Source: an uncultured Eubacteriales bacterium
GTDB taxonomy: Bacteria; Bacillota; Clostridia; Christensenellales; Aristaeellaceae
Assembly: GCA_900315675.1 (NCBI GenBank)
Contig: OMZY01000007.1
Span: 1 to 64,000, forward strand
DNA: 64,000 nt
Direction of reading: 5' to 3'
The translations under genes and the position numbers were made by a program. The notes below the pieces were generated by a model. The model was not told where the DNA came from. It searched no databases and saw only the letters and a list, made by a program, of their open reading frames with translations. Of this stretch, positions 21,500-62,085 are shown piece by piece (the stretch's first letter is position 1; every line of letters begins with the position of its first letter).

Positions 21500-23239
21500 T
21501 CAGCCCTTGTTCACCAGTTTCTGCAGGGCGGGGCAGGTTTTCAGCAGCTCCGAGTATTTCCCCTGTCCGGCAATCTGTCCGTCCTTGAGGACGATGATCC
21601 GGTCAAAGTTATCCATCAGCTCGGGATAAACGTCATGGGTCACGGCAATCCGGGTTTTGCCCTCCATCTGCTGCACGGTGCGGATCAGCCGGCTGCCGGT
21701 GCGGATATCCAGGGCGGAAGTGGCCTCGTCCAGCAGCAGCACTTTGGCGCCCAGGAGAATGCTCCGGGCAATGCCTACCCGCTGCTTCTCCCCGCCGGAG
21801 AGGTTGGCCCCGTTCTCGCCGCAGGCATAGTCCAGGCCTTTTTCCTTCACCAGTTCCTCCAGGCCCGCCTTCTTCACCGCGTCCTCCAGCACCGCCCTGT
21901 CCACGGGCCGGAAGAGGGTGATGTTTTCCTCAATGGTCGCGTCAAACAGGAAGGTCTCCTGGTGGATGACCGAAATCAGTTCAAACAGCCGCTCCCCGGA
22001 AATATCCCGGATATCCTGCCCGTCGTACCGGACGGAACCGGTATAGTCCCGCTTGGCGCCGGACAGCAGGTTCAGCAGCGTGGTCTTGCCGCTGCCGCTC
22101 TCCCCCAGGATGGCGTAGCAGCCGCCCGCAGGCAGGGACAGGGAGAGGCTGCGCAGGACCTCCTGCCCTTCGCCGTAGGAAACGGAGACATTGTCCGCCT
22201 CCACCTTTTTCCCGCAGGAAACGGCCCTGTCCTCCCCTTCCGCCTGGGAAAGGGCCAGCATGCCGTCGTGGCGCTCCATCAGCTTATCCGCGGCCTTTAC
22301 GTTCGCCAGCAGTTCCGGCACGGTCACCGCCAGCTGCACGATGTTGGACATCAGCTGGGTAAAGGCAATGATCACACCCACGGTCACCGCCGGATCATTC
22401 TTTGACAGAAGCAGGCTGATAAAGAAGAAGGCGATCCGGGCGATGTGCCCCGACAGGGACGCGATATACGCCACGGAGATCTCCGTATGCTCCCGGTCCG
22501 CGAAGGTATCGGAAGCTTTCCGGTTCACCTTCAGCAGCCGCGCGGCCACAGACCCCTCCGCCCGCATGCTTTTGACCGCCCGGAAGCCGGTCAGCATTTC
22601 CGTAAAGGCGCTGAGGAAGCCGCCGTTGGCCTCCGCCAGCTGCTCCTCGCACTCCGCCACCTGGTTCACCCGGAAGGAGGACAGGAGAATCGGCAGCAGG
22701 GAAACGCCGAAGGCGATCAGCGCCAGCCGCACGTCGTAGGCGAGCATCAGCACAACGGTGCCTGCGAAGTTCAGCACCAGCTCCGCCAGGTAAGGCAGGG
22801 ATTCCAGATAACTCGTCCGGATGGTGTTCAGGTCGTTGGACACCGCCGAGGCATAGGCGCCGGTGTTCTCCCGGCCGAAGGCGGAAATGTCCTTGCTCAG
22901 CACCTTCCGGCAGAAATAAGCCCGGTAGCGGGTCAGCGCCTGCCGCCGGAACGCGGTCCAGCAGAAATACTCCAGCGCCGCGCTGATCAGCAGGCACAGG
23001 AAGCAGCTCACCGCGAAAAGGATCAGGTAGGGAATCGAGCTGGGCTGATCCCCGGAAACCGTGTCCAGGATCTTCTGGGTAAAGGCGGAAAAGCCCAGCA
23101 CGGACAGCGTCTTGAAAACGCAGCCCAGCAGGGACAGGGCCAGGTTCTTCCGGTTCTTCAGGAAAAGGGAATCCCTGCATTTCCGAATCCCGCCGATCTC
23201 CTCCGGGGTGATTTCGGTTCCCTTTACTGCTTCGCTCAT
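21500..23239 (-). CDS. ABC exporter of the radical SAM peptide cluster
   Basis: This 579-residue half-transporter fuses a six-helix export domain (about residues 30-310) to an ATPase domain. ATPase motifs are GESGSGKTT (Walker A, near 385), a Q-loop IHQETFLF, the signature LSGGEKQR, VLLLDEATSALD (Walker B) and an H-loop VTHD. There is no N-terminal C39 peptidase domain, so it would export without cleaving a leader. Its start overlaps the stop of the radical SAM maturase by 4 bases (ATGA), so the two are made together. The likely cargo is the modified peptide encoded at 24732-24845. Confidence 0.9.
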   Translation of the reverse strand: MSEAVKGTEITPEEIGGIRKCRDSLFLKNRKNLALSLLGCVFKTLSVLGFSAFTQKILDTVSGDQPSSIPYLILFAVSCFLCLLISAALEYFCWTAFRRQALTRYRAYFCRKVLSKDISAFGRENTGAYASAVSNDLNTIRTSYLESLPYLAELVLNFAGTVVLMLAYDVRLALIAFGVSLLPILLSSFRVNQVAECEEQLAEANGGFLSAFTEMLTGFRAVKSMRAEGSVAARLLKVNRKASDTFADREHTEISVAYIASLSGHIARIAFFFISLLLSKNDPAVTVGVIIAFTQLMSNIVQLAVTVPELLANVKAADKLMERHDGMLALSQAEGEDRAVSCGKKVEADNVSVSYGEGQEVLRSLSLSLPAGGCYAILGESGSGKTTLLNLLSGAKRDYTGSVRYDGQDIRDISGERLFELISVIHQETFLFDATIEENITLFRPVDRAVLEDAVKKAGLEELVKEKGLDYACGENGANLSGGEKQRVGIARSILLGAKVLLLDEATSALDIRTGSRLIRTVQQMEGKTRIAVTHDVYPELMDNFDRIIVLKDGQIAGQGKYSELLKTCPALQKLVNKG

Positions 23240-24657
23240 GATACCAGTTCCTTCTGTTCAGTCGTATTATCCTGCAGGTATGATACCATCATTTCGCGCA
23301 CTTGTGGATAATAAATTGTATCCAGGAAACTGCGGAAATCATCCTTTTCCGCTTCACACATCCTGTTAAAGTCAATTTCCGCCGACAGGGCACACCCACC
23401 GGAGCAGAAGCCTCCGATCGGGCAGTCCTTGCATTTTTCATAATCCAGATAGGTACGGTTCGGCGCCTTGTACTTCTCCAGGTTTTCAAGCGAGAACTTG
23501 AACTGTGAGTAGTTCTTCCTTCCCACGGTGAATGTACACCTGAACACATCCAGGGCAGCATCGATATAGTATACGTCATCAACCGGTGAAGAAGCCCAGC
23601 AGTAGTTGGAGATATATTTCCTTTCTCTCTGTTTGAACGCCGGATCCAGTTTCCTGCACAGGGAAAGAGTCGACTTCACAAAAGCATAATAGACATGAGG
23701 ATGGGTGATATTCAGTTCATTCAGCTTACTGATCAGCTGTGTATCGGTGACCATCTTGTCATACCCGGTTTCAAACCGGCGATCATCCACCCGGGCAATC
23801 CCAAACCTGAAATTCGGATTGTCCAGGAATCCATGATCCCTGTAAAACCGGATCATATCACCAATCTGGTCTATATTATGCTGATCTATATTGGCTTCCA
23901 CCTGTACGATAATGTCATAGTTGATCAAAGTATAGATGGATTTCAGCAGGCTGCTTCCCTTTGAGTCCACACCATCGTCAGAGCTGAAACGTGTTTTCTC
24001 GTTTTCGGACAGACTGTCAATGGTTGTATTGACCGTGATTCCCAAGCCGCTGTAGATTACCAGGTCCTTCAGATAATAGGGAATATTCACTCCGTTTGTC
24101 GTTATTCCGACAGAGCATCCATGATCCACGCAGTAATCAAAGATACGGATAACGTCATCATGGTTTTCCTTCAGCAGCGGTTCGCCGCCAAAGAGCTCAA
24201 TATATACTTCCTTTTCCGGATACTTCGCCTGATAAGCTGTAATGGTATCAAGAACAAAGGTAAGATTCTCCGCAGTCATCTTTCTCCGGTCAAGATCCGG
24301 ATTGCACTGCTGATAGCAGTACTTGCACCTGAGATTACAGTCGTAACTCAGCGCAATAACAAAGGTTGTTGTCTTGTTTGCTGCCTCAATGAAATTTTCC
24401 GGCAGGTCAATCTCCTGAAGCGGCTGGGACGGATAGCCGATGAACTGCTCAAATTCAGCAGGATATGCTCCGTTTTCATCCCAGTCCTTCTTTGCCATGA
24501 CAAAGCTTTTATTCAGATAGGAATTTGTGATGCACAGAAAATCCTCCGAAAGGGGCTCAATCAGCAGATGGGAGGTTTTTTCCGGCTTGTATTCCCGAAC
24601 ACCGTTCAGTATTTGTTCGTTCAGTTTACCGTTTGCGATTTCAAGAATCCTGATCAT
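23236..24657 (-). CDS. Radical SAM/SPASM peptide maturase
   Basis: The 473-residue enzyme has the radical SAM cluster motif CNLRCKYC (CxxxCxxC) near residue 112, the GGEP motif (LFGGEPLL) near 154, and a C-terminal SPASM-type cysteine region: CTFTVGR, then CKDCPIGGFCSGGC, then a final MCEAE. About 95 residues before the core read like a peptide-recognition region. Enzymes of this layout install crosslinks (thioether, C-C or others) in ribosomal peptides using S-adenosylmethionine. The ATG at 24657 has AGAGGTGA upstream; a longer start at 24714 would run through the attenuator. It follows a 37-residue precursor gene and overlaps the exporter gene, which gives a complete minimal RiPP operon. 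Confidence 0.9.
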   Translation of the reverse strand: MIRILEIANGKLNEQILNGVREYKPEKTSHLLIEPLSEDFLCITNSYLNKSFVMAKKDWDENGAYPAEFEQFIGYPSQPLQEIDLPENFIEAANKTTTFVIALSYDCNLRCKYCYQQCNPDLDRRKMTAENLTFVLDTITAYQAKYPEKEVYIELFGGEPLLKENHDDVIRIFDYCVDHGCSVGITTNGVNIPYYLKDLVIYSGLGITVNTTIDSLSENEKTRFSSDDGVDSKGSSLLKSIYTLINYDIIVQVEANIDQHNIDQIGDMIRFYRDHGFLDNPNFRFGIARVDDRRFETGYDKMVTDTQLISKLNELNITHPHVYYAFVKSTLSLCRKLDPAFKQRERKYISNYCWASSPVDDVYYIDAALDVFRCTFTVGRKNYSQFKFSLENLEKYKAPNRTYLDYEKCKDCPIGGFCSGGCALSAEIDFNRMCEAEKDDFRSFLDTIYYPQVREMMVSYLQDNTTEQKELVS

Positions 24658-24674
24658 GACTGTCACCTCTAGCA

Positions 24675-24717
24675 GAAAAATGAGGTGCACCCAAAGATGA
24701 ATCTGTGGATGCACCTG
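24675..24717 (-). terminator. Attenuator between precursor and maturase genes
   Basis: On the minus strand AGGTGCATCC pairs with GGGTGCACCT and is followed by CATTTTTCT. A partial terminator here would let the short precursor message exceed the enzyme message, as is common in peptide-maturation operons. Confidence 0.75.
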
Positions 24718-24731
24718 TGGGACCGGAAAGC

Positions 24732-24845
24732 TTAGGAAAGCGCCGTTACACTATAGCGGCGATGGCCAACACCGCAGTTCACGCGGCGTTTTGCGATCTT
24801 AGCCTTCTTGGCCTGTTCTTCCTTGGTCAGGGTTACTGTCAGCAT
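24732..24845 (-). CDS. RiPP precursor peptide, 37 aa
   Basis: The frame encodes 37 residues. The first ~18 form a charged leader, MLTVTLTKEEQAKKAKIA, and the rest a basic core, KRRVNCGVGHRRYSVTALS, with one Cys, one His, four Arg and one Tyr. AAAGGAGGAA lies at ideal spacing before the ATG. The gene sits directly before the radical SAM enzyme with an attenuator between. The single Cys rules out a multi-Cys SCIFF-type peptide. Tyr preceded by Arg-Arg recalls the streptococcal RRR family where an Arg-Tyr crosslink is formed; a Cys-based thioether is the other option. The link to that family is inference from a short motif. Confidence 0.8.
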   Translation of the reverse strand: MLTVTLTKEEQAKKAKIAKRRVNCGVGHRRYSVTALS

Positions 24846-55636: not shown

Positions 55637-55662
55637 AAATGTTGCAAATTTGCCCCATTTTC
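55637..55662. promoter_or_regulatory. 26-bp element, left copy
   Basis: AAATGTTGCAAATTTGCCCC + ATTTTC is nearly the same as AAATGTTGTAAATATGCCCC + ATTCTT at 60964-60989, with TACAATTT following in both. It lies between the 91-residue gene and the peptide operon. It may be an operator for the WYL regulator. Confidence 0.6.
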
Positions 55663-55782
55663 TGAGTTTTTACAATTTTCTTAAAATTTTTGTAATTTTT
55701 TTGTTGGGAAAGCAAAAGGTTACATGGCGTTTTGACTGTTTTTTGTATGTATCCGGTATACACGTAAAGAACCGTATTTGTA

Positions 55783-55811
55783 TTGACATCTTTACAACAG
55801 GTGTAAATAAT
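55783..55811 (+). promoter_or_regulatory. Promoter of the kinase/PqqD peptide operon, with operator-like repeat
   Basis: TTGACA (55783-55788), a 17-base spacer and AATAAT (55806-55811) form a near-consensus sigma-A promoter 52 bases before the peptide start. The inverted repeat TTTACA-N5-TGTAAA (55791-55807) lies inside the spacer, in position to block RNA polymerase. Confidence 0.7.
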
Positions 55812-55862
55812 GGTAAACGGCAAAGAAAATGTACAGACTAATGCGAAAAGGAGGACACAATC

Positions 55863-55952
55863 ATGGAAAAGTATGAAACTCTTGAAATGGAAGTGGTCCG
55901 CTTTGAAGCGGAAGATGTTATTTGCGAGAGCCAGCAGTGGCCCACTAAGTAA
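55863..55952 (+). CDS. Precursor-like peptide, 29 aa
   Basis: The frame encodes MEKYETLEMEVVRFEAEDVI + CESQQWPTK. AAAGGAGG at ideal spacing precedes the ATG, a good promoter lies upstream, and a hairpin that could attenuate follows. The first ~20 residues (YETLEMEVVRFEAEDVI) look like a leader bound by PqqD-type proteins, with alternating hydrophobic residues able to add a strand. The likely core is CESQQWPTK, with one Cys, one Ser and one Thr as sites for modification. It precedes a kinase, PqqD-like protein, S24/S26 protease-like protein and exporter, so a ribosomal peptide product is the best reading. Confidence 0.78.
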   Translation: MEKYETLEMEVVRFEAEDVICESQQWPTK

Positions 55953-55963
55953 GTAGCATCCCC

Positions 55964-55992
55964 GGCTGCACGGTTTGCCCGTACAGCCTTTC
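55964..55992 (+). terminator. Attenuator after the precursor gene
   Basis: GGCTGCACGG pairs with CCGTACAGCC (one mismatch) around TTTGC and is followed by TTTCTG. It would raise the level of precursor message over that of the enzyme genes, as in the other peptide operon. Confidence 0.65.
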
Positions 55993-56077
55993 TGACCCAT
56001 CCCCGGCATGTCTGCTGTTTATAATAGAAAATCACCCTGTTCCGCGCGACCGTTAATGCGAAAGGAGCCCCTCCATC

Positions 56078-56821
56078 ATGACAGGAACCTACCTGATCGG
56101 AGATCAGATGATCGGAATCAGTTCCCTGTATTCCGCTGTACATGATTACTGCCGGGATTACCAGGCAGTGGGAGCGCCCGTTTTTTATGTGGAAACAACT
56201 CCGGCAGACCTGGTTTTTGAGCGTGAACGCTCCGAACAGATCGGCGGGGCGCTCCCTGTACAGTCTGAAGAGAACCGGAACAAAGAGCTTGAACTGCTGG
56301 CGGTTTACCGAAGGATTGCGGAACAGATGCCCTTCCGGGATACATTCCTGTTTCACGGCTCCGCCGTTGCGGTGGACGGCGCCGCTTACCTGTTTACCGC
56401 CAGAAGCGGAACCGGCAAAAGCACCCACACCCGCCTGTGGCGGGAGATGCTTGGGGACCGCGCCGTGATGGTGAACGACGACAAGCCCCTGATCCGCCTT
56501 ACCGAAGACGGCGCGGTTGTTTACGGCACGCCCTGGAACGGAAAGCACCGCCTGGGCACAAACATCTCGGTTCCGCTGAAGGCCGTCTGCATCCTCGAGC
56601 GCGCGAAGCAGAACACGATCCGTGCCATCACCCGTGAGGAAGCGTTCCCCATGCTGATTCAGCAAAGCTACCGTCCCCTGGATCCGGCGGCACTGGCAAA
56701 GACCCTGTCCCTGGTGGACCGGCTGAGCCGAACCGTTTCCCTGTACCGGCTGGGATGCAATATGGATCCGGAAGCAGCGGAACTGTCCTACAACATCATG
56801 AAGGAGGCCACCCGGCAATGA
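56078..56821 (+). CDS. HprK-like kinase of the peptide cluster
   Basis: The 247-residue protein has the P-loop LFTARSGTGKSTHTRLW at about residues 107-123. The HPr-kinase-like layout around it includes FHGSAVAVDGAAYLF before and MVNDDKPLIRL, VYGTPWNGKHRLG after. Small HprK-type proteins of this kind occur in some lasso and other peptide clusters, where they phosphorylate the precursor on a C-terminal serine. The core here ends in SQQWPTK, which offers Ser and Thr. AAAGGAG precedes the ATG. Its last bases overlap the PqqD gene as ATGA. Confidence 0.82.
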   Translation: MTGTYLIGDQMIGISSLYSAVHDYCRDYQAVGAPVFYVETTPADLVFERERSEQIGGALPVQSEENRNKELELLAVYRRIAEQMPFRDTFLFHGSAVAVDGAAYLFTARSGTGKSTHTRLWREMLGDRAVMVNDDKPLIRLTEDGAVVYGTPWNGKHRLGTNISVPLKAVCILERAKQNTIRAITREEAFPMLIQQSYRPLDPAALAKTLSLVDRLSRTVSLYRLGCNMDPEAAELSYNIMKEATRQ

Positions 56822-57078
56822 AACTGAAAAAAGAATTCCTGTGCCACACGACCGACCAGGAGGCCATGCTGGTTCCTACCGGACGGGCCGGGTTTGCCGG
56901 CCTGGTGAGGGGCAACAAGACCCTGGGCATCATCCTGAACCTGCTGGAAAAAGAAACCACAGAGGCGGAAATCATCGCCGCGATGAAGGCGCGTTTTGAC
57001 GCGCCGGAAGAAGTGCTGGCCCGGGACGTCCGGACCGCGCTGCAGAACCTGCGGGACGTCGGCGCGCTGGCTGAATAA
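56818..57078 (+). CDS. PqqD-like peptide chaperone
   Basis: The 86-residue protein is a single PqqD-type domain: a first strand pair (KEFLCHTTDQEAMLVPTGRA), GLVRGNKTLGIILNLLEKET, a helix with TEAEIIAAMKARFDAPEEVL, and VRTALQNLRDVGAL. PqqD domains (RiPP recognition elements) bind the leader of a precursor and present it to the modifying enzymes. It overlaps the kinase gene (ATGA) and is followed by the protease-like gene after four bases. This strongly supports a ribosomal peptide role for the cluster. Confidence 0.87.
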   Translation: MKLKKEFLCHTTDQEAMLVPTGRAGFAGLVRGNKTLGIILNLLEKETTEAEIIAAMKARFDAPEEVLARDVRTALQNLRDVGALAE

Positions 57079-57082
57079 GAAA

Positions 57083-57523
57083 ATGGATTATGAATCATAC
57101 CTGGCGGAGCACGACAGCCTGACCTACCGGATGACAGGCGTGAGCATGCTGCCGCTGCTGCGGGAAGGCCGGGATCTGTTTACCGTACGCCGGAAAGAGC
57201 CCGGGGAGAAGTGCCGGCCCGGGGATGTGGTGCTGTACCGCAGGCCGCCGAGTCACTATGTGCTGCACCGGGTCATGCAGGTCCGGAACGAGGATTACGT
57301 TATCCTGGGGGACAACTGCATCGCGCGGGAATACGGCATCCGGGACGAAGATATCCTCGGCGTGATGACGGGCTACGTGCGGAAAGGCAAAGCCCACAGT
57401 ACGAAAGAACTTCCCTGCCGGCTGTATACCTTCCTGATGCTGCACGCAGCCAGCCTCCGGATCTTCCTGAAACGCTGCGGGGGCAAAATCCGGAAGATCG
57501 CCGGGAGGATCGTCCATGCGTAA
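57083..57523 (+). CDS. S24/S26 signal-peptidase-like protein
   Basis: The 146-residue protein has the S24/S26 pattern: TGVSMLPLLREGRD near residue 15 (SM with the catalytic serine), PGDVVLYRRPPSHYVLHRVM near 47 (VLHRV is the usual box after the lysine-type region), and VILGDNCIAREYGIRDEDIL with GDN near 75. The general-base lysine of signal peptidases is not obvious; the RR of YRRPP takes its place, so activity needs proof. A hydrophobic C-terminal segment (LYTFLMLHAASLRIFLKR) may contact the membrane. It has no own ribosome binding site and depends on PqqD translation. It may cut the leader, replacing the transglutaminase-like protease of lasso clusters. Confidence 0.8.
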   Translation: MDYESYLAEHDSLTYRMTGVSMLPLLREGRDLFTVRRKEPGEKCRPGDVVLYRRPPSHYVLHRVMQVRNEDYVILGDNCIAREYGIRDEDILGVMTGYVRKGKAHSTKELPCRLYTFLMLHAASLRIFLKRCGGKIRKIAGRIVHA

Positions 57524-59183
57524 TCATACCGTTGCCTGGCTCTGGCGGACGCCGGGGCGGAAAAAAGGATATGTCGCGGCGCTGACGGCGGTACAGGTCC
57601 TGATCGGATTTCTCAACGTCGGTTTCGCGCTGCTGTTGCGGAATGTGATCAACAGCGCCGTCAGCCGGGACCAGGAGTCGTTCCGGTATTACGCGCTGCT
57701 TCTCCTGATCCTGACGGCGGGCTCCCTCCTGCTGCACATGGTCAACCGGTGGCTGACAGAGCTTTCCAAAGCGCAGCTTGAAAACCTGTTCAAGCAGCGG
57801 CTGACTGCGGTCATCCTGCGGAAAGAGTACGCGGCCGTGAGCGCCGTTCACTCCGGGGAATGGATGAACCGGCTGACAAACGATACGCGCATTGTTGCGG
57901 AAAACTATACAGAGCTGATTCCGGGCCTCTCCGGCATGGGGGTCCGGCTTGTTGCTGCCGTCACGATGCTGATTGTGCTGGACCGCCATTTTGCCGCGAT
58001 CCTGCTGCCCGGCGGCGCGGCAATGATCGCACTGTCCGTTTTGCTGCGGGGAGTGCTCAAACGCCTGCACACGCGGATGCAGGAATCGGACGGGAAACTG
58101 CGGATTTTCCTGCAGGAATGCATCGGAAACCTGATGATCGTCAAATCCTACGCGGCGGAAGAACACGCAGAACAGGAAGCCGCAAACCGGATGCACACCC
58201 ACCTGCGGGACCGGATGCGGAAAAACAACCTGGCTAACCTGGGCACCTCCGGCGTGGCCGTGGCGATCAACGCGATGTATGTATACGGCATTATCTACTG
58301 CGCCCGGGGCATTATGACCGGCTCCGTTTCCTACGGCACGCTGACCGCCGTGATGCAGCTGATCGCCCAGATCCAGGGCCCCATTACCAGCATCAGCGGA
58401 TACCTGCCGCGGTGGTTTGCCATGCTGGCCAGCGCCGAGCGCCTGATGGAAGCGGAGCAGCTCGAAGATGAACAGACGGAAGAGAGAATGACGCCCGCAC
58501 AGATCCGGGACTTTTATGACAGCCGTTTCCGGGCCCTCCGCCTCCGGGACGTCTGTTTCACCTATGCCGGGGAAGACCGGCAGGAGATCCTGAAGGACCT
58601 CAGCCTGGAAATCCGGAAGGGCGAAACTGTCGCCTTCTGCGGGCACAGCGGCTGCGGGAAATCCACCGTGCTGAAGCTGCTGCTGGGCATGTACTCGCCG
58701 GACAGCGGGGAAATCACCGTGGACGGACAGCCGCTGACCGCGGCCTGGCGCGGGTTGTTTGCCTATGTACCCCAGGGAAACGCCCTGCTGCACGGAACCA
58801 TCCGGGACATTGTCTCCTTCGCGGATCCGGCGCATGCCGGGGATGAAGAACGCCTGGGGCGGGCGCTGCGAACCGCCTGCGCGGAGGAATTCGTTTCCGG
58901 GCTGGAACAGGGCGCGGATACGGAGCTGGGCGAACGCGGCGCGGGCCTGTCCGAAGGCCAAACGCAGCGGCTGGCCATTGCGAGGGCCATCTTTTCCGGA
59001 CGGCCGGTGCTGCTGCTGGATGAATCCACCAGCGCCCTGGACGCGGAAACAGAAGAACAGCTGCTGAAGAACCTGCGCGGCCTGACAGACAGGACCGTGA
59101 TCATCGTGACGCACCGGCCGGCGGCGCTGGCCATCTGCGACCGGGTACTGCGGTTTACCGAAGAAGGAGGATGCGAAGCATGA
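57516..59183 (+). CDS. ABC exporter of the peptide cluster
   Basis: This 555-residue half-transporter has about six helices (residues 15-310) and an ATPase domain with CGHSGCGKST (Walker A, near 372), a Q-loop VPQGNALL, the signature variant LSEGQTQR, VLLLDESTSALD (Walker B) and VTHRPAA (H-loop). There is no peptidase domain. The start overlaps the protease-like gene by 8 bases and the end overlaps the nucleotidyltransferase gene by 4. It likely exports the mature peptide. Confidence 0.9.
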   Translation: MRNHTVAWLWRTPGRKKGYVAALTAVQVLIGFLNVGFALLLRNVINSAVSRDQESFRYYALLLLILTAGSLLLHMVNRWLTELSKAQLENLFKQRLTAVILRKEYAAVSAVHSGEWMNRLTNDTRIVAENYTELIPGLSGMGVRLVAAVTMLIVLDRHFAAILLPGGAAMIALSVLLRGVLKRLHTRMQESDGKLRIFLQECIGNLMIVKSYAAEEHAEQEAANRMHTHLRDRMRKNNLANLGTSGVAVAINAMYVYGIIYCARGIMTGSVSYGTLTAVMQLIAQIQGPITSISGYLPRWFAMLASAERLMEAEQLEDEQTEERMTPAQIRDFYDSRFRALRLRDVCFTYAGEDRQEILKDLSLEIRKGETVAFCGHSGCGKSTVLKLLLGMYSPDSGEITVDGQPLTAAWRGLFAYVPQGNALLHGTIRDIVSFADPAHAGDEERLGRALRTACAEEFVSGLEQGADTELGERGAGLSEGQTQRLAIARAIFSGRPVLLLDESTSALDAETEEQLLKNLRGLTDRTVIIVTHRPAALAICDRVLRFTEEGGCEA

Positions 59184-60301
59184 TGACGGAGGAAAACAAA
59201 AAGGTGCTGGACGACCTGGTTTATCTCGCGGCCTGCGCGGTAAACGGGCAGGTTCCGGAGAAAAGCCGGACGGACGGAATGGATCTTTCCCTCGTATATG
59301 AAGCCGCGCAGAATCATAAGCTGGCGGCGGCCGCCGGAATGGCGCTGGAATCCGCCGGCATCCGGAACGAGGCTTTTGTGCAGGCCGTTGCCAAGGCTAT
59401 GCGGAAAAACGCCCTGCTGGACGCGGACCGGGCGGAGCTGACCCGGAAGCTGGAGGAAGCAGGCATCTGGTACATGCCGCTGAAGGGCGCCATCCTCAAG
59501 GATCTGTATCCCCGCTTCGGCATGCGCGAAATGGCGGACAACGATATCCTGGTGGACGCCGCCCGGGCGCAGGACGTCGGCCGGATCATGCAGGAACTGG
59601 GGTTTGAAGTGAAAGAGGCCGGAAAAGGCCACCATGACGAGTATACAAAACCGCCGGTCAGCAATTTTGAAATCCACCGGATGCTGTTCAGCGGCCTGGA
59701 CAGCGAACCCTGCCACCTGTATTACAGGGAGATGGAGAAGCGCCTGATCCCGGACGAAGATGGTTCTTTCGGACGGCACTTCTCAACAGACGACCTTTAC
59801 CTGTACCTGACCGCCCATGAATACAAGCATTACCGGCACGGCGGTACCGGGATTCGTTCCCTGCTGGACACCTATGTGTTCCTCCGGAAATACGGAGAAG
59901 CGCTGGATATGGACTATGTGGCAGCGGAAGCGGAAAAAATGGGAACCGCTGATTATGAAAAGAAGAGCCGGGAGCTGGCCCTCCGGCTGTTCAGCGGAGA
60001 GGTGCTGACAGAGGCGGAACAGGAGATGCTGGCCTATTATGCCTCCTGCGGCACCTACGGTTCTTATGAACAGAAGATCGTGAACGAAGTCCATTCCTTC
60101 GGCGGCGGACTCAGTGGAAAGCTCCGCTTCTTCCTCTCCCGCCTGTTTATGCCCATGGATAAAATCAAATATGCCTATCCGTTAGTCTACCGGCATAAAA
60201 TCCTGCTGCCCTTCCTGTATGTCTACCGGATCATCAAGGGGCTGACGTTCCGCAGGGGCGTTACCATGGCCGACCTGAAGGCGCTGAAAAAACCGATGTG
60301 A
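59180..60301 (+). CDS. Nucleotidyltransferase family protein of the peptide cluster
   Basis: The 373-residue protein belongs to the NTP_transf_5-like family: YMPLKGAILKDLYPRFGMRE near residue 98 (LKG-x-x-L...Y...R) followed by MADNDILVD (D-x-D-x-L-V, the metal site). An FEIHRML block and a helical C-terminal domain with LYLTAHEYKHYRHGG follow. In kinase-containing lasso clusters a similar protein is found next to the exporter, with unproved function. AAGGAGG precedes the ATG at 59180, and the start overlaps the exporter stop as ATGA. Confidence 0.82.
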   Translation: MMTEENKKVLDDLVYLAACAVNGQVPEKSRTDGMDLSLVYEAAQNHKLAAAAGMALESAGIRNEAFVQAVAKAMRKNALLDADRAELTRKLEEAGIWYMPLKGAILKDLYPRFGMREMADNDILVDAARAQDVGRIMQELGFEVKEAGKGHHDEYTKPPVSNFEIHRMLFSGLDSEPCHLYYREMEKRLIPDEDGSFGRHFSTDDLYLYLTAHEYKHYRHGGTGIRSLLDTYVFLRKYGEALDMDYVAAEAEKMGTADYEKKSRELALRLFSGEVLTEAEQEMLAYYASCGTYGSYEQKIVNEVHSFGGGLSGKLRFFLSRLFMPMDKIKYAYPLVYRHKILLPFLYVYRIIKGLTFRRGVTMADLKALKKPM

Positions 60302-60312
60302 GGAAAAAGCAG

Positions 60313-60963
60313 ATGATCATCAGAGAAACGAACCCGGGAGACCTGAAACGGGTCAGCGAAATGGCCCGGCTGCACCTCAGCACCTTTCCGGACTACTTCC
60401 TTTCCATGCTGGGGCTCCCTTTCATGAAGGCCGTTTACCGGGAGTATATTGAAGATCCGAACGCCGGTATCGTCATCGCGGAAGAAGACGGAAACCTGGT
60501 AGGGCTTCTTTCCTACATGGACGGCACCTCCCAGGTGCCGGTCAACGTGATCAACAGCCACCCGCTCCTGTTCCTGTACAGCGCCGCCCGCCTGATCCTG
60601 CGCAAACCGTCCCTGTACCGGAATGTGAAAAAGCTTTATGAATCCTGCAAAAAGGCAAAAACAAAGGTTCCTTCCCGGAAGTTTATCGAGCTGGGTTCCT
60701 TTGCCCTGTATCCGCACCTGAGGGGAAACGGAACCGGAACAAAAATGCTGGATTACATCAAGGCCATGCCGGACTACAATACCTGCGACTGCGTCAGCCT
60801 GACCACCGCCTCGGATGACAACGACCGGGTCAACCTCTTTTACCTGAAGCGCGGATTTGTTCCCGTCGGCATGGTTACCATGCCCGAAGGAAAGTGTATG
60901 ACCATATACCAGTACAGCCCGAATCCCACAAAGTACCGGTCCGCCGGCGTGATCACGCAATAA
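60313..60963 (+). CDS. GNAT family N-acetyltransferase of the peptide cluster
   Basis: The 216-residue protein has GNAT features: IIRETNPGDLKRVSEMARLH, IVIAEEDGNLVGLLSYM, SFALYPHLRGNGTGTKMLDY (the R/Q-x-x-G-x-G/A acetyl-CoA loop as RGNGTG), and RVNLFYLKRGFVPVG. A ~45-residue insertion with LLFLYSAARLILRKPSLYRN makes it longer than usual. The ATG at 60313 follows GAGG; an in-frame GTG at 60298 overlaps the previous gene. As last gene of the operon it may acetylate the peptide (leading amino group or lysine), or have a separate role. Confidence 0.8.
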   Translation: MIIRETNPGDLKRVSEMARLHLSTFPDYFLSMLGLPFMKAVYREYIEDPNAGIVIAEEDGNLVGLLSYMDGTSQVPVNVINSHPLLFLYSAARLILRKPSLYRNVKKLYESCKKAKTKVPSRKFIELGSFALYPHLRGNGTGTKMLDYIKAMPDYNTCDCVSLTTASDDNDRVNLFYLKRGFVPVGMVTMPEGKCMTIYQYSPNPTKYRSAGVITQ

Positions 60964-60989
60964 AAATGTTGTAAATATGCCCCATTCTT
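60964..60989. promoter_or_regulatory. 26-bp element, right copy
   Basis: AAATGTTGTAAATATGCCCC + ATTCTT matches the left copy at 55637-55662 at 22 or 23 of 26 positions. It begins one base after the stop of the acetyltransferase gene and lies about 70 bases before the WYL gene. Confidence 0.6.
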
Positions 60990-61059: not shown

Positions 61060-62085
61060 ATGAACAACCAGAAGAAATACATCCATTTCCAGCTGCTTCA
61101 GATCCTGAAAGAGGAAACGGACAGCGAGCATCCCATGCGGCAGAAGGACCTGGTGCAGCGCCTGGGCGTAGACCGGGGCACGGTCAGCCGCGCCCTGGGA
61201 GACCTGCTGGACGACCCGCTGAACAGCCGGGTCCGCTCCGTCAACCTGGAAAGGGAAACGGAGGACGGGGACGAGGACAAGCGGTCCTACCACTCCAACG
61301 TCTACTATGACCATGAGTTTTCCACCGCGGAGCTGCGCTGGCTGATTGACGGCATCCTCTTCAGCCGCAATGTGCCCCACACCCAGCGGGACGAGCTGAT
61401 CGGCAAGCTGGTTACCCTCGGCGGCAAGCAGCTGCGCCGGACCGGCTCGCTGGCCAAGGTGCGCCGCCTTTCCGGGAACGAGCCCGGGAATCCGGAGCTG
61501 TTCAGCAACATTGAACTGATCAACAAGGCCATTGAAGAGCAAAAGAAAATCTCCACCGTTTACTGCTACCTGGGGCCGGACTTCACCCTGGAGCCCTCCG
61601 CCGCTTCCTCCGCCGGTCCCCAGATCCTGAACCCCTACGCCATGGTGGTACGCAACGGATTCTATTTCCTGATCTGCAGCAACAACAAATACAACAGCCT
61701 GACCAACTACCGCATTGACCGGATGACGGAAGTGAAGATCCGGAAGGAAGCGGTGAAGCCCGTCCGGGAGCTGGAAGGCTTCCGGGCCGGCTTTGATATC
61801 CAGGAATACATGAGCCACAACATCAACATGGCCTTCGGCACGCCGGAGCGGATCACCTTTATCGCCAAGCCTCGGGCGGTGCGGGAAATCATCGACGCCT
61901 TCGGCCGGGGCGTGACCTTTGCCCGCCGGAAGGACGGGGACCTGGACTGCGTGGTGTATGTACCGGAATACGATATGGAGCGCTGGGTGCTCCAGTTCGG
62001 CGACCTTGTCACCGTCACCGGGCCGGACACGCTGCTGGAGAAGCTGAGGAAATACTCCCTGATTCTTGCGGAGAAGTACACCTGA
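61060..62085 (+). CDS. WYL-domain transcriptional regulator
   Basis: The 341-residue protein has an N-terminal winged HTH (RQKDLVQRLGVDRGTVSRAL) and a C-terminal WYL domain: ILNPYAMVVRNGFYFLICSN followed by YRIDRMTEVKI near 215-240, and the WCX-type tail ERITFIAKPRAVREIIDAFG to the end. WYL proteins sense nucleotide or other ligands and often control defence or stress genes. It follows the peptide cluster by 96 bases, with the 26-bp element between. It is a good candidate regulator of that cluster. AAAAGGGAC precedes the ATG. Confidence 0.87.
   Translation: MNNQKKYIHFQLLQILKEETDSEHPMRQKDLVQRLGVDRGTVSRALGDLLDDPLNSRVRSVNLERETEDGDEDKRSYHSNVYYDHEFSTAELRWLIDGILFSRNVPHTQRDELIGKLVTLGGKQLRRTGSLAKVRRLSGNEPGNPELFSNIELINKAIEEQKKISTVYCYLGPDFTLEPSAASSAGPQILNPYAMVVRNGFYFLICSNNKYNSLTNYRIDRMTEVKIRKEAVKPVRELEGFRAGFDIQEYMSHNINMAFGTPERITFIAKPRAVREIIDAFGRGVTFARRKDGDLDCVVYVPEYDMERWVLQFGDLVTVTGPDTLLEKLRKYSLILAEKYT

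Follow-up and report, generated by a model that had tools for sequence, protein, structure and literature searches.

The seven open reading frames (ORFs) at 55863-60963 on the + strand of the window (the whole 64,000-nucleotide stretch analysed) form a cluster that we read, with moderate confidence, as a cyclase-less, linear, phosphorylated relative of the lasso peptide systems, with an S26 protease in place of the B2 leader peptidase. Nearly all of the ORFs abut or overlap, and the whole gene set named in the original prediction was found: a 29-residue precursor peptide preceded by a strong RBS (55863..55952), an HprK-like kinase (56078..56821), a PqqD-like protein that would serve as the leader-binding (RRE) protein (56818..57078; PF05402, 6e-11), an S26 protease of the archaeal/ER signal-peptidase type and probable leader peptidase (57083..57523), an ABC exporter with membrane and ATPase parts on a single chain (57516..59183; ABC_tran/ABC_membrane), an NTP_transf_5 nucleotidyltransferase-fold protein (59180..60301; PF14907, 4e-41) and a GNAT acetyltransferase (60313..60963; Acetyltransf_1); a WYL regulator follows at 61060-62085. 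With a conserved leader, a variable core, an RRE protein, a candidate modification enzyme and an exporter, the locus has, as judged from its sequence, the parts expected of a RiPP cluster. No description of this gene set was found by title or abstract opening in the open-licence literature.

Among 44 genomes of the same genus that were searched, four (G001, G002, G005 and G022) encode kinase orthologues at 91-98% identity, and the 29-residue peptide recurs in these four sister genomes, with three tandem copies in G022 (ending CESFWAA, CTSSGLPQK and CESQQWPTK) and two in G005 (ending CESSWSWQQ and CASQQWPTK). This recurrence and the tandem arrangement indicate that the frame does not stand there by chance. 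Across the eight window-clade copies, only residues 6, 12 and 22 vary within codons 1-23, whereas all six of codons 24-29 vary in amino acid, which is the leader/core pattern of a precursor. The window-clade cores carry a single Cys and no ring acceptor, and the window core has no Asp or Glu at positions 7-9. When the window's own genome (G000) was searched with a leader profile, the window peptide was the sole match. We also looked for other proteins sharing the tail of the window peptide, using QWPTK in G000 and [YWC]PTK-stop in G000, G001, G002, G005 and G022; beyond the peptides, this returned two frames, both taken as chance: one of 26 residues in G002, which ends in YPTK, and one of 11 residues in G000.

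Upstream of the peptide gene lies the near-consensus, sigma-70-like promoter sequence that had been predicted (TTGACA-17-AATAAT, 55783..55811, + strand), but shuffled sequences average 1.1 such hits, and the motif match is weak alone. A hairpin directly 3' of the gene (55964..55988, + strand) is for the most part preserved behind the tandem copies of the sister genomes: 92.6% of cells pair across six copies, the covariation score is matched by 4 of 500 shuffles and the fold z-score is -1.81, while three of nine pairs carry changes in both arms, a count that 147 of 500 shuffles also attain, and one pair is lost from three of the six rows. Thus, the hairpin of the attenuator originally proposed stands, but its attenuation role is unsupported, the hairpin being absent from the list returned by a terminator scan of the window. 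That the 29-residue ORF is a mere regulatory leader ORF attenuating the enzyme operon would suit both the hairpin and the Trp codon within the tail; we consider this very unlikely, since the leader motif is conserved at the amino-acid level across loci of unrelated flanks, the tandem copies differ in their tails, and stretches that lack the enzymes carry further copies in trans (see below).

To place the peptide in a wider family, 65 distinct precursors were gathered by regular expression and profile, with D-[VI]-[ILV] built into the search and the Tyr spacing only loosely selected. Some starts were shifted by eye to an inner Met, near-identical copies (G001, the third G022 copy and G005b) were left out, and regex matches that lay within large ORFs or were clearly non-leader, a peptide of L108 that lacks EDVI and a frame of L230 that is truncated were excluded before counting. 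The prediction of a leader ending in EDVI is supported; in the family, this part of the motif was selected by the search itself. With a cut after EDVI assumed, position -17 is Tyr or Phe in 64/65 precursors, -14 is Pro in 37/65, -12 is Leu, Met, Ile or Val in 64/65 and -2 is Val or Ile in 65/65 (part of the search pattern), Val being the rule; core position 3 is Ser in 61/65, and four lack it. The window leader (proposed residues 1-20, core CESQQWPTK) shows YxxLxM, a variant of the YxxPxL motif of lasso leaders, Leu replacing Pro and Met replacing Leu, and keeps the lasso register (Tyr-17, Pro/Leu-14, Met-12) next to a PqqD-like B1 protein. The lasso precursor BsfA likewise carries Tyr-17, Pro-14, Leu-12 and Ile-2, and its kinase BsfK, which is stimulated by a PqqD-like B1, places a phosphate on Ser3 of the core (PMC10368454). 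If the cut falls after EDVI, the lasso register would be kept and the near-invariant Ser would sit at core position 3, the residue that BsfK phosphorylates. The register favours the core near CESQQWPTK that had been proposed, short of proof. Against our preferred reading, changes of the Tyr/Pro/Leu residues of the BsfA leader (Ala at -17, Ala at -12 and the double and triple changes) left phosphorylation unaffected, and Ile(-2)Val barely allowed leader removal by the BsfA B2 (PMC10368454), yet Val is the rule here.

A cut elsewhere is less likely but kept as a second model: the S26 protein may cleave after the conserved Ser (the signal-peptidase -3/-1 rule, with the cut directly after T/C-x-S), freeing window-clade peptides of 4-6 residues such as QQWPTK or FWAA, with phosphorylation either falling in the leader or gating cleavage. 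S26/S24 enzymes normally prefer a small residue before the cut, and with cleavage after EDVI that residue would be Ile, which counts against the reading we prefer. Hypervariability starts exactly past Ser23, the S26 box residues are present in the protease, and +1 is Thr or Cys in 29/34 and +3 is Ser in 30/34 precursors of a list that predates L124, L129, L132, L133 and the trans peptides and likewise leaves out the near-identical copies. However, cleavage after Ser would shift the leader register off that of lasso precursors (to -20/-17/-15), discard any Ser3 phosphate and leave 17/65 cores without any Ser or Thr. In those 17, which have no Ser or Thr beyond core position 3, a core Ser/Thr kinase must use the T/C-x-S segment.

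We then consider the enzymes. The NCBIfam matches of the kinase are all HprK-related and all below cut-off (ScmC 1.3e-5, HprK_rel_B 2e-4), and no Pfam family matched. The window kinase has the His-Lys-Asp-Asp set of an HPr-like peptide kinase: among 81 aligned sequences (the window's and those of the 80 loci listed), H93, K114 and D135 are each present in 81/81 and D134 in 79/81; in a wider alignment, Asp134 is replaced by Gly in 8/18 sequences. The S26 protein matches TIGR02228 (archaeal-type signal peptidase I, 3.1e-10) and the NiSOD protease model (6e-7), both below cut-off. It has the boxes GVSMLP, LHRV and GDN, and Ser21 (55/55), His62 (55/55) and D77 (54/54) are invariant in the aligned sequences of the loci listed, so that the predicted S24/S26-type protease has its S26 catalytic Ser/His dyad intact. 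These Ser-His boxes are shared with the NiSOD maturation protease and archaeal-type signal peptidases, from which the window protein differs in its place in a peptide cluster with a kinase and PqqD. NiSOD proteases are not known to have a transmembrane anchor, and the window protein likewise shows no strong transmembrane segment, falling below the hydropathy threshold passed by only 2/55 S26 proteins. In the NTP_transf_5 protein, D120 and D122 are present in 32/32 sequences with letters there (33 aligned). At the thresholds used, no solved-structure relatives were found for the kinase, S26 protein or nucleotidyltransferase. Relatives of the GNAT were seen only in the window's clade (three loci, L032-L034) and in 0/80 kinase loci listed. 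HprK-related and PqqD-family proteins are also contained in the SynChlorMet / HPr-rel-A cassettes (NCBIfam ScmC, HprK_rel, PqqD_rel_X), but the window's matches to these models lie far under cut-off (E 1e-5 to 0.02). The window's genome encodes a second HprK-like kinase (G000:C10:94802-95452), and no PqqD was called on the surrounding 19-kb stretch.

As predicted, neither a lasso cyclase nor a B2 protease was found in the cluster. The window shares a His-Lys-Asp kinase, a PqqD-type RRE, an ABC exporter and a nucleotidyltransferase accessory with the paeninodin, pseudomycoidin and BsfA lasso systems, and differs from such phosphorylated systems in that no cyclase or B2 was found and an S26 protease stands in place, and in that the precursors have no fixed ring acceptor and a C-terminal Ser in only 2/65. 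The asparagine-synthetase motif SGGxDS was present in 0/401 ORFs of at least 300 residues across the 80 loci listed, with a pattern that finds AsnB in 4/4 genomes tried, and the Asn_synthase matches in the window's genome are a 538-residue AsnB-like ORF and a 329-residue ORF on another contig. Matches to the B2 family PF13471 in the window's genome stay below threshold; Transglut_core3 was above cut-off in 0/25 genomes with such loci (three sub-threshold; MAG completeness not given), and the window's genome and those of five relatives all match B2 weakly, the match of G002 alone narrowly exceeding the cut-off (26.2 bits) at a distance of ~800 kb from the cluster of that genome. A lasso cluster served by a cyclase and a B2 encoded elsewhere would account for the lasso-like leader register, for the kinase, PqqD and PF14907 accessories and for the Asp or Glu at core position 7, 8 or 9 in 41/65 precursors; given these negative searches over the own genome, relatives and the 80 loci, and window-clade cores that offer no ring acceptor, we rejected it as very improbable. 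Neither of the outcomes that the original prediction had named as counting against it, a cyclase and B2 elsewhere or an unconserved frame, was observed.

Some relative of the kinase is present in 30 of 100 related genomes, and at E 1e-20 it was found in 10 of 398 genomes drawn across the phylum (the window's own included), so it is not general in the phylum. A genome scan with the kinase alignment confirmed at least 315 relatives, from which 80 named loci were taken; most of those listed are labelled rumen or gut Clostridia MAGs, with some Bacteroidales, Synergistaceae and Atopobiaceae and a few isolates, e.g., Ruminococcus flavefaciens Y1 and Kandleria vitulina DSM 20405. Near the kinase, these 80 loci contain PqqD in 59 cases, S26 in 55, ABC in 39, NTase in 32 and a radical-SAM-like ORF in seven; S26 was not seen in 25/80 and PqqD in 21/80, contig ends cutting some. 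Within a subset of 50 loci with sufficient flanks (1.5 kb or more upstream of the kinase and 4.5 kb or more downstream), kinase, PqqD and S26 occur together in 32 and the full five-gene set in 13; the gene order proposed as a check does recur in other genomes. The peptide is not invariably found ahead of the enzymes: 30/80 stretches listed bear a leader-type peptide, including 25/55 with S26, none was seen on the other 30/55, and other genomes carry peptides in trans. That S26, PqqD, Ser3, Asp134 or an adjacent peptide is absent in part of the family counts against our preferred reading.

No SGGxDS cyclase appeared in these relatives, but an ORF with a C...C..C motif was found in 7/80 kinase loci listed and in several sister-genome loci, and in a Pfam scan that covered 78 of the 116 cyclase-sized ORFs nearby the commonest of the families listed (25 of 120) was radical SAM, with seven members (Bac_transf, Glycos_transf_1 and D-Ala ligase had two each). 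The window itself has a radical-SAM-like ORF at 23236-24714. These observations would fit a radical-SAM RiPP cluster whose radical SAM enzyme was lost, leaving a remnant, or is used in trans. We regard this as quite unlikely: the window's enzyme, at 31 kb the nearest C...C..C ORF to the cluster, has its own candidate peptide and ABC gene; 27 of the 32 kinase-PqqD-S26 loci with sufficient flanks lack such an ORF within 6 kb; window-clade cores have one Cys; and the genes of the cluster are intact and conserved among the sister genomes. Since most loci have neither a lasso cyclase nor a radical-SAM-like ORF, the absence of a cyclase is the rule in the family. Taken together, the predicted peptide-maturation module without cyclase or B2 holds up, with the changes that its peptide is not always adjacent, that it also occurs beside radical-SAM-like ORFs and that relatives of the GNAT were found only in the window's clade. 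Same-genus radical-SAM RiPP-like clusters (L040, L042, L049 and L054) share a related kinase and leader and, in part, PqqD, S26 and ABC, and differ from the window in longer Cys-bearing cores and a C...C..C ORF. Arrays of multiple HprK-like kinases, in part with radical-SAM-like ORFs and Cys-bearing peptides of related leader, were noted at G022:C1:3306000-3342000, G035:C1:1232000-1266000 and G001:C35:60000-92000. The second RiPP-like set of the window (21500-24845, - strand) comprises a candidate 37-residue peptide (start 24845; MLTVTLTKEEQ...NCGVGHRRYS), the radical-SAM-like ORF (492 residues, CNLRCKYC) and an ABC transporter ORF.

The leader profile was also run on 18 genomes, made up of three positive controls, four genomes from the window clade and 11 whose loci had shown no adjacent peptide (that of L133 among them was later found with some). 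Matches at E 0.05 or better occurred in 18/18 genomes, a few weak ones inside longer frames, and at 1e-5 in 10 of those 11; the R. flavefaciens Y1 genome has eight, G108 seven, and G105 and G119 six each. Around such matches 20 stretches were taken, of which 18 have no kinase set (L226-L243, 25 peptides). In these 18, a same-strand ORF of at least 130 residues ends just 5' of 23/25 peptides, compared with 75/122 larger genes and 1098/3600 random points, and one of at least 240 residues with a hydrophobic N-terminus precedes 15/25 peptides, compared with 26/122 and 330/3600. A profile of a C-terminal domain of secreted surface proteins (CTD) matches 12/25 of the proteins upstream at a whole-protein E of 1e-3, some perhaps only internally, and the CTD is also found upstream in 17/80 kinase loci listed. 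The CTD spans 110-130 residues of the ALSY...VKALYxYxxAAxAY type and is carried by large secreted proteins directly 5' of peptides (L084, L088, L093, L101, L114, L119, L134 and others). No Pfam family matched more than 1/16 members (best E 0.0098), solved-structure relatives came only at E 0.089 or worse, and the CTD occurs in 1/61 genomes of the window's genus and order.

A stalked lipoprotein or similar membrane-anchored protein is encoded in 14/80 kinase loci listed, the candidates of L103 and L108 being left uncounted, and an LPF[VI]P-type C-terminus, defined post hoc, is found in 10/648 non-enzyme genes, all encoding stalked or membrane-anchored proteins of these loci. In L115 and L122, neither PqqD nor S26 was found near the kinase, and a lipoprotein with this tail lies immediately 5' of it. 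The C-terminal tail of the lipoprotein repeats that of the same-locus peptide in L114 (ELPFVPA), L109 (GGAGNED/GGAGTED), L131 (EDELPW[VI]PA), L226 (IELPLVPLR) and L228 (DGLNWSPLTPI/DGLEWSPLTPIN). Over 15 loci, gathered after some matches had been seen, none of 200,000 re-pairings scores as high as the own lipoprotein-peptide pairing; once the six strongest loci are removed, 2,160/200,000 re-pairings reach the own score, and an earlier test on 10 loci gave 8/100,000. The own lipoprotein ranks first in 7/15 loci (at least one tied) and fourth or worse in L093, L116, L134, L227 and L229. No lipoprotein or CTD partner was seen in the window clade. It is tempting to speculate that one cytoplasmic set (kinase, PqqD, S26, ABC and PF14907) makes many linear phospho- or phosphoglyco-peptides genome-wide, most encoded behind a secreted surface protein, and that the peptide C-terminus copies the same-locus lipoprotein tail as a free-/tethered-ligand pair competing for one extracellular partner, in a surface attachment switch, a signal or self-immunity. 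The branch carried by the window would then be minimal and self-contained: its tails mostly bear Trp, and no surface partner was seen for it.

Under the cyclase-less, linear reading that we prefer, the product of the cluster would be a short linear ribosomal peptide. By homology, the PqqD protein would bind the leader via YxxLxM and present it to two enzymes: the HprK-like kinase, predicted to place a phosphate on core Ser3 (CES...), and the S26 Ser/His protease, a soluble protein that would cut after EDVI; the ABC protein would then export the product. PsmN, annotated as a nucleotidyltransferase, is required for a hexose on phospho-Ser of pseudomycoidin (PMC9266682); we can only guess that the PF14907 protein may attach a sugar or nucleotide to the phosphate, just as the GNAT may acetylate the peptide, and its function is a matter of similar conjecture. 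If this reading is true, the cluster represents a kind of linear phosphorylated RiPP with a lasso leader register, a swapped peptidase and no cyclase, in a system that occurs in bacteria of the rumen and gut, the isolate Ruminococcus flavefaciens Y1 among them. The purpose of these HprK-like kinases and PF14907 enzymes thereby becomes testable, and the peptide-lipoprotein tail pairs point towards an unexplained cell-surface system.
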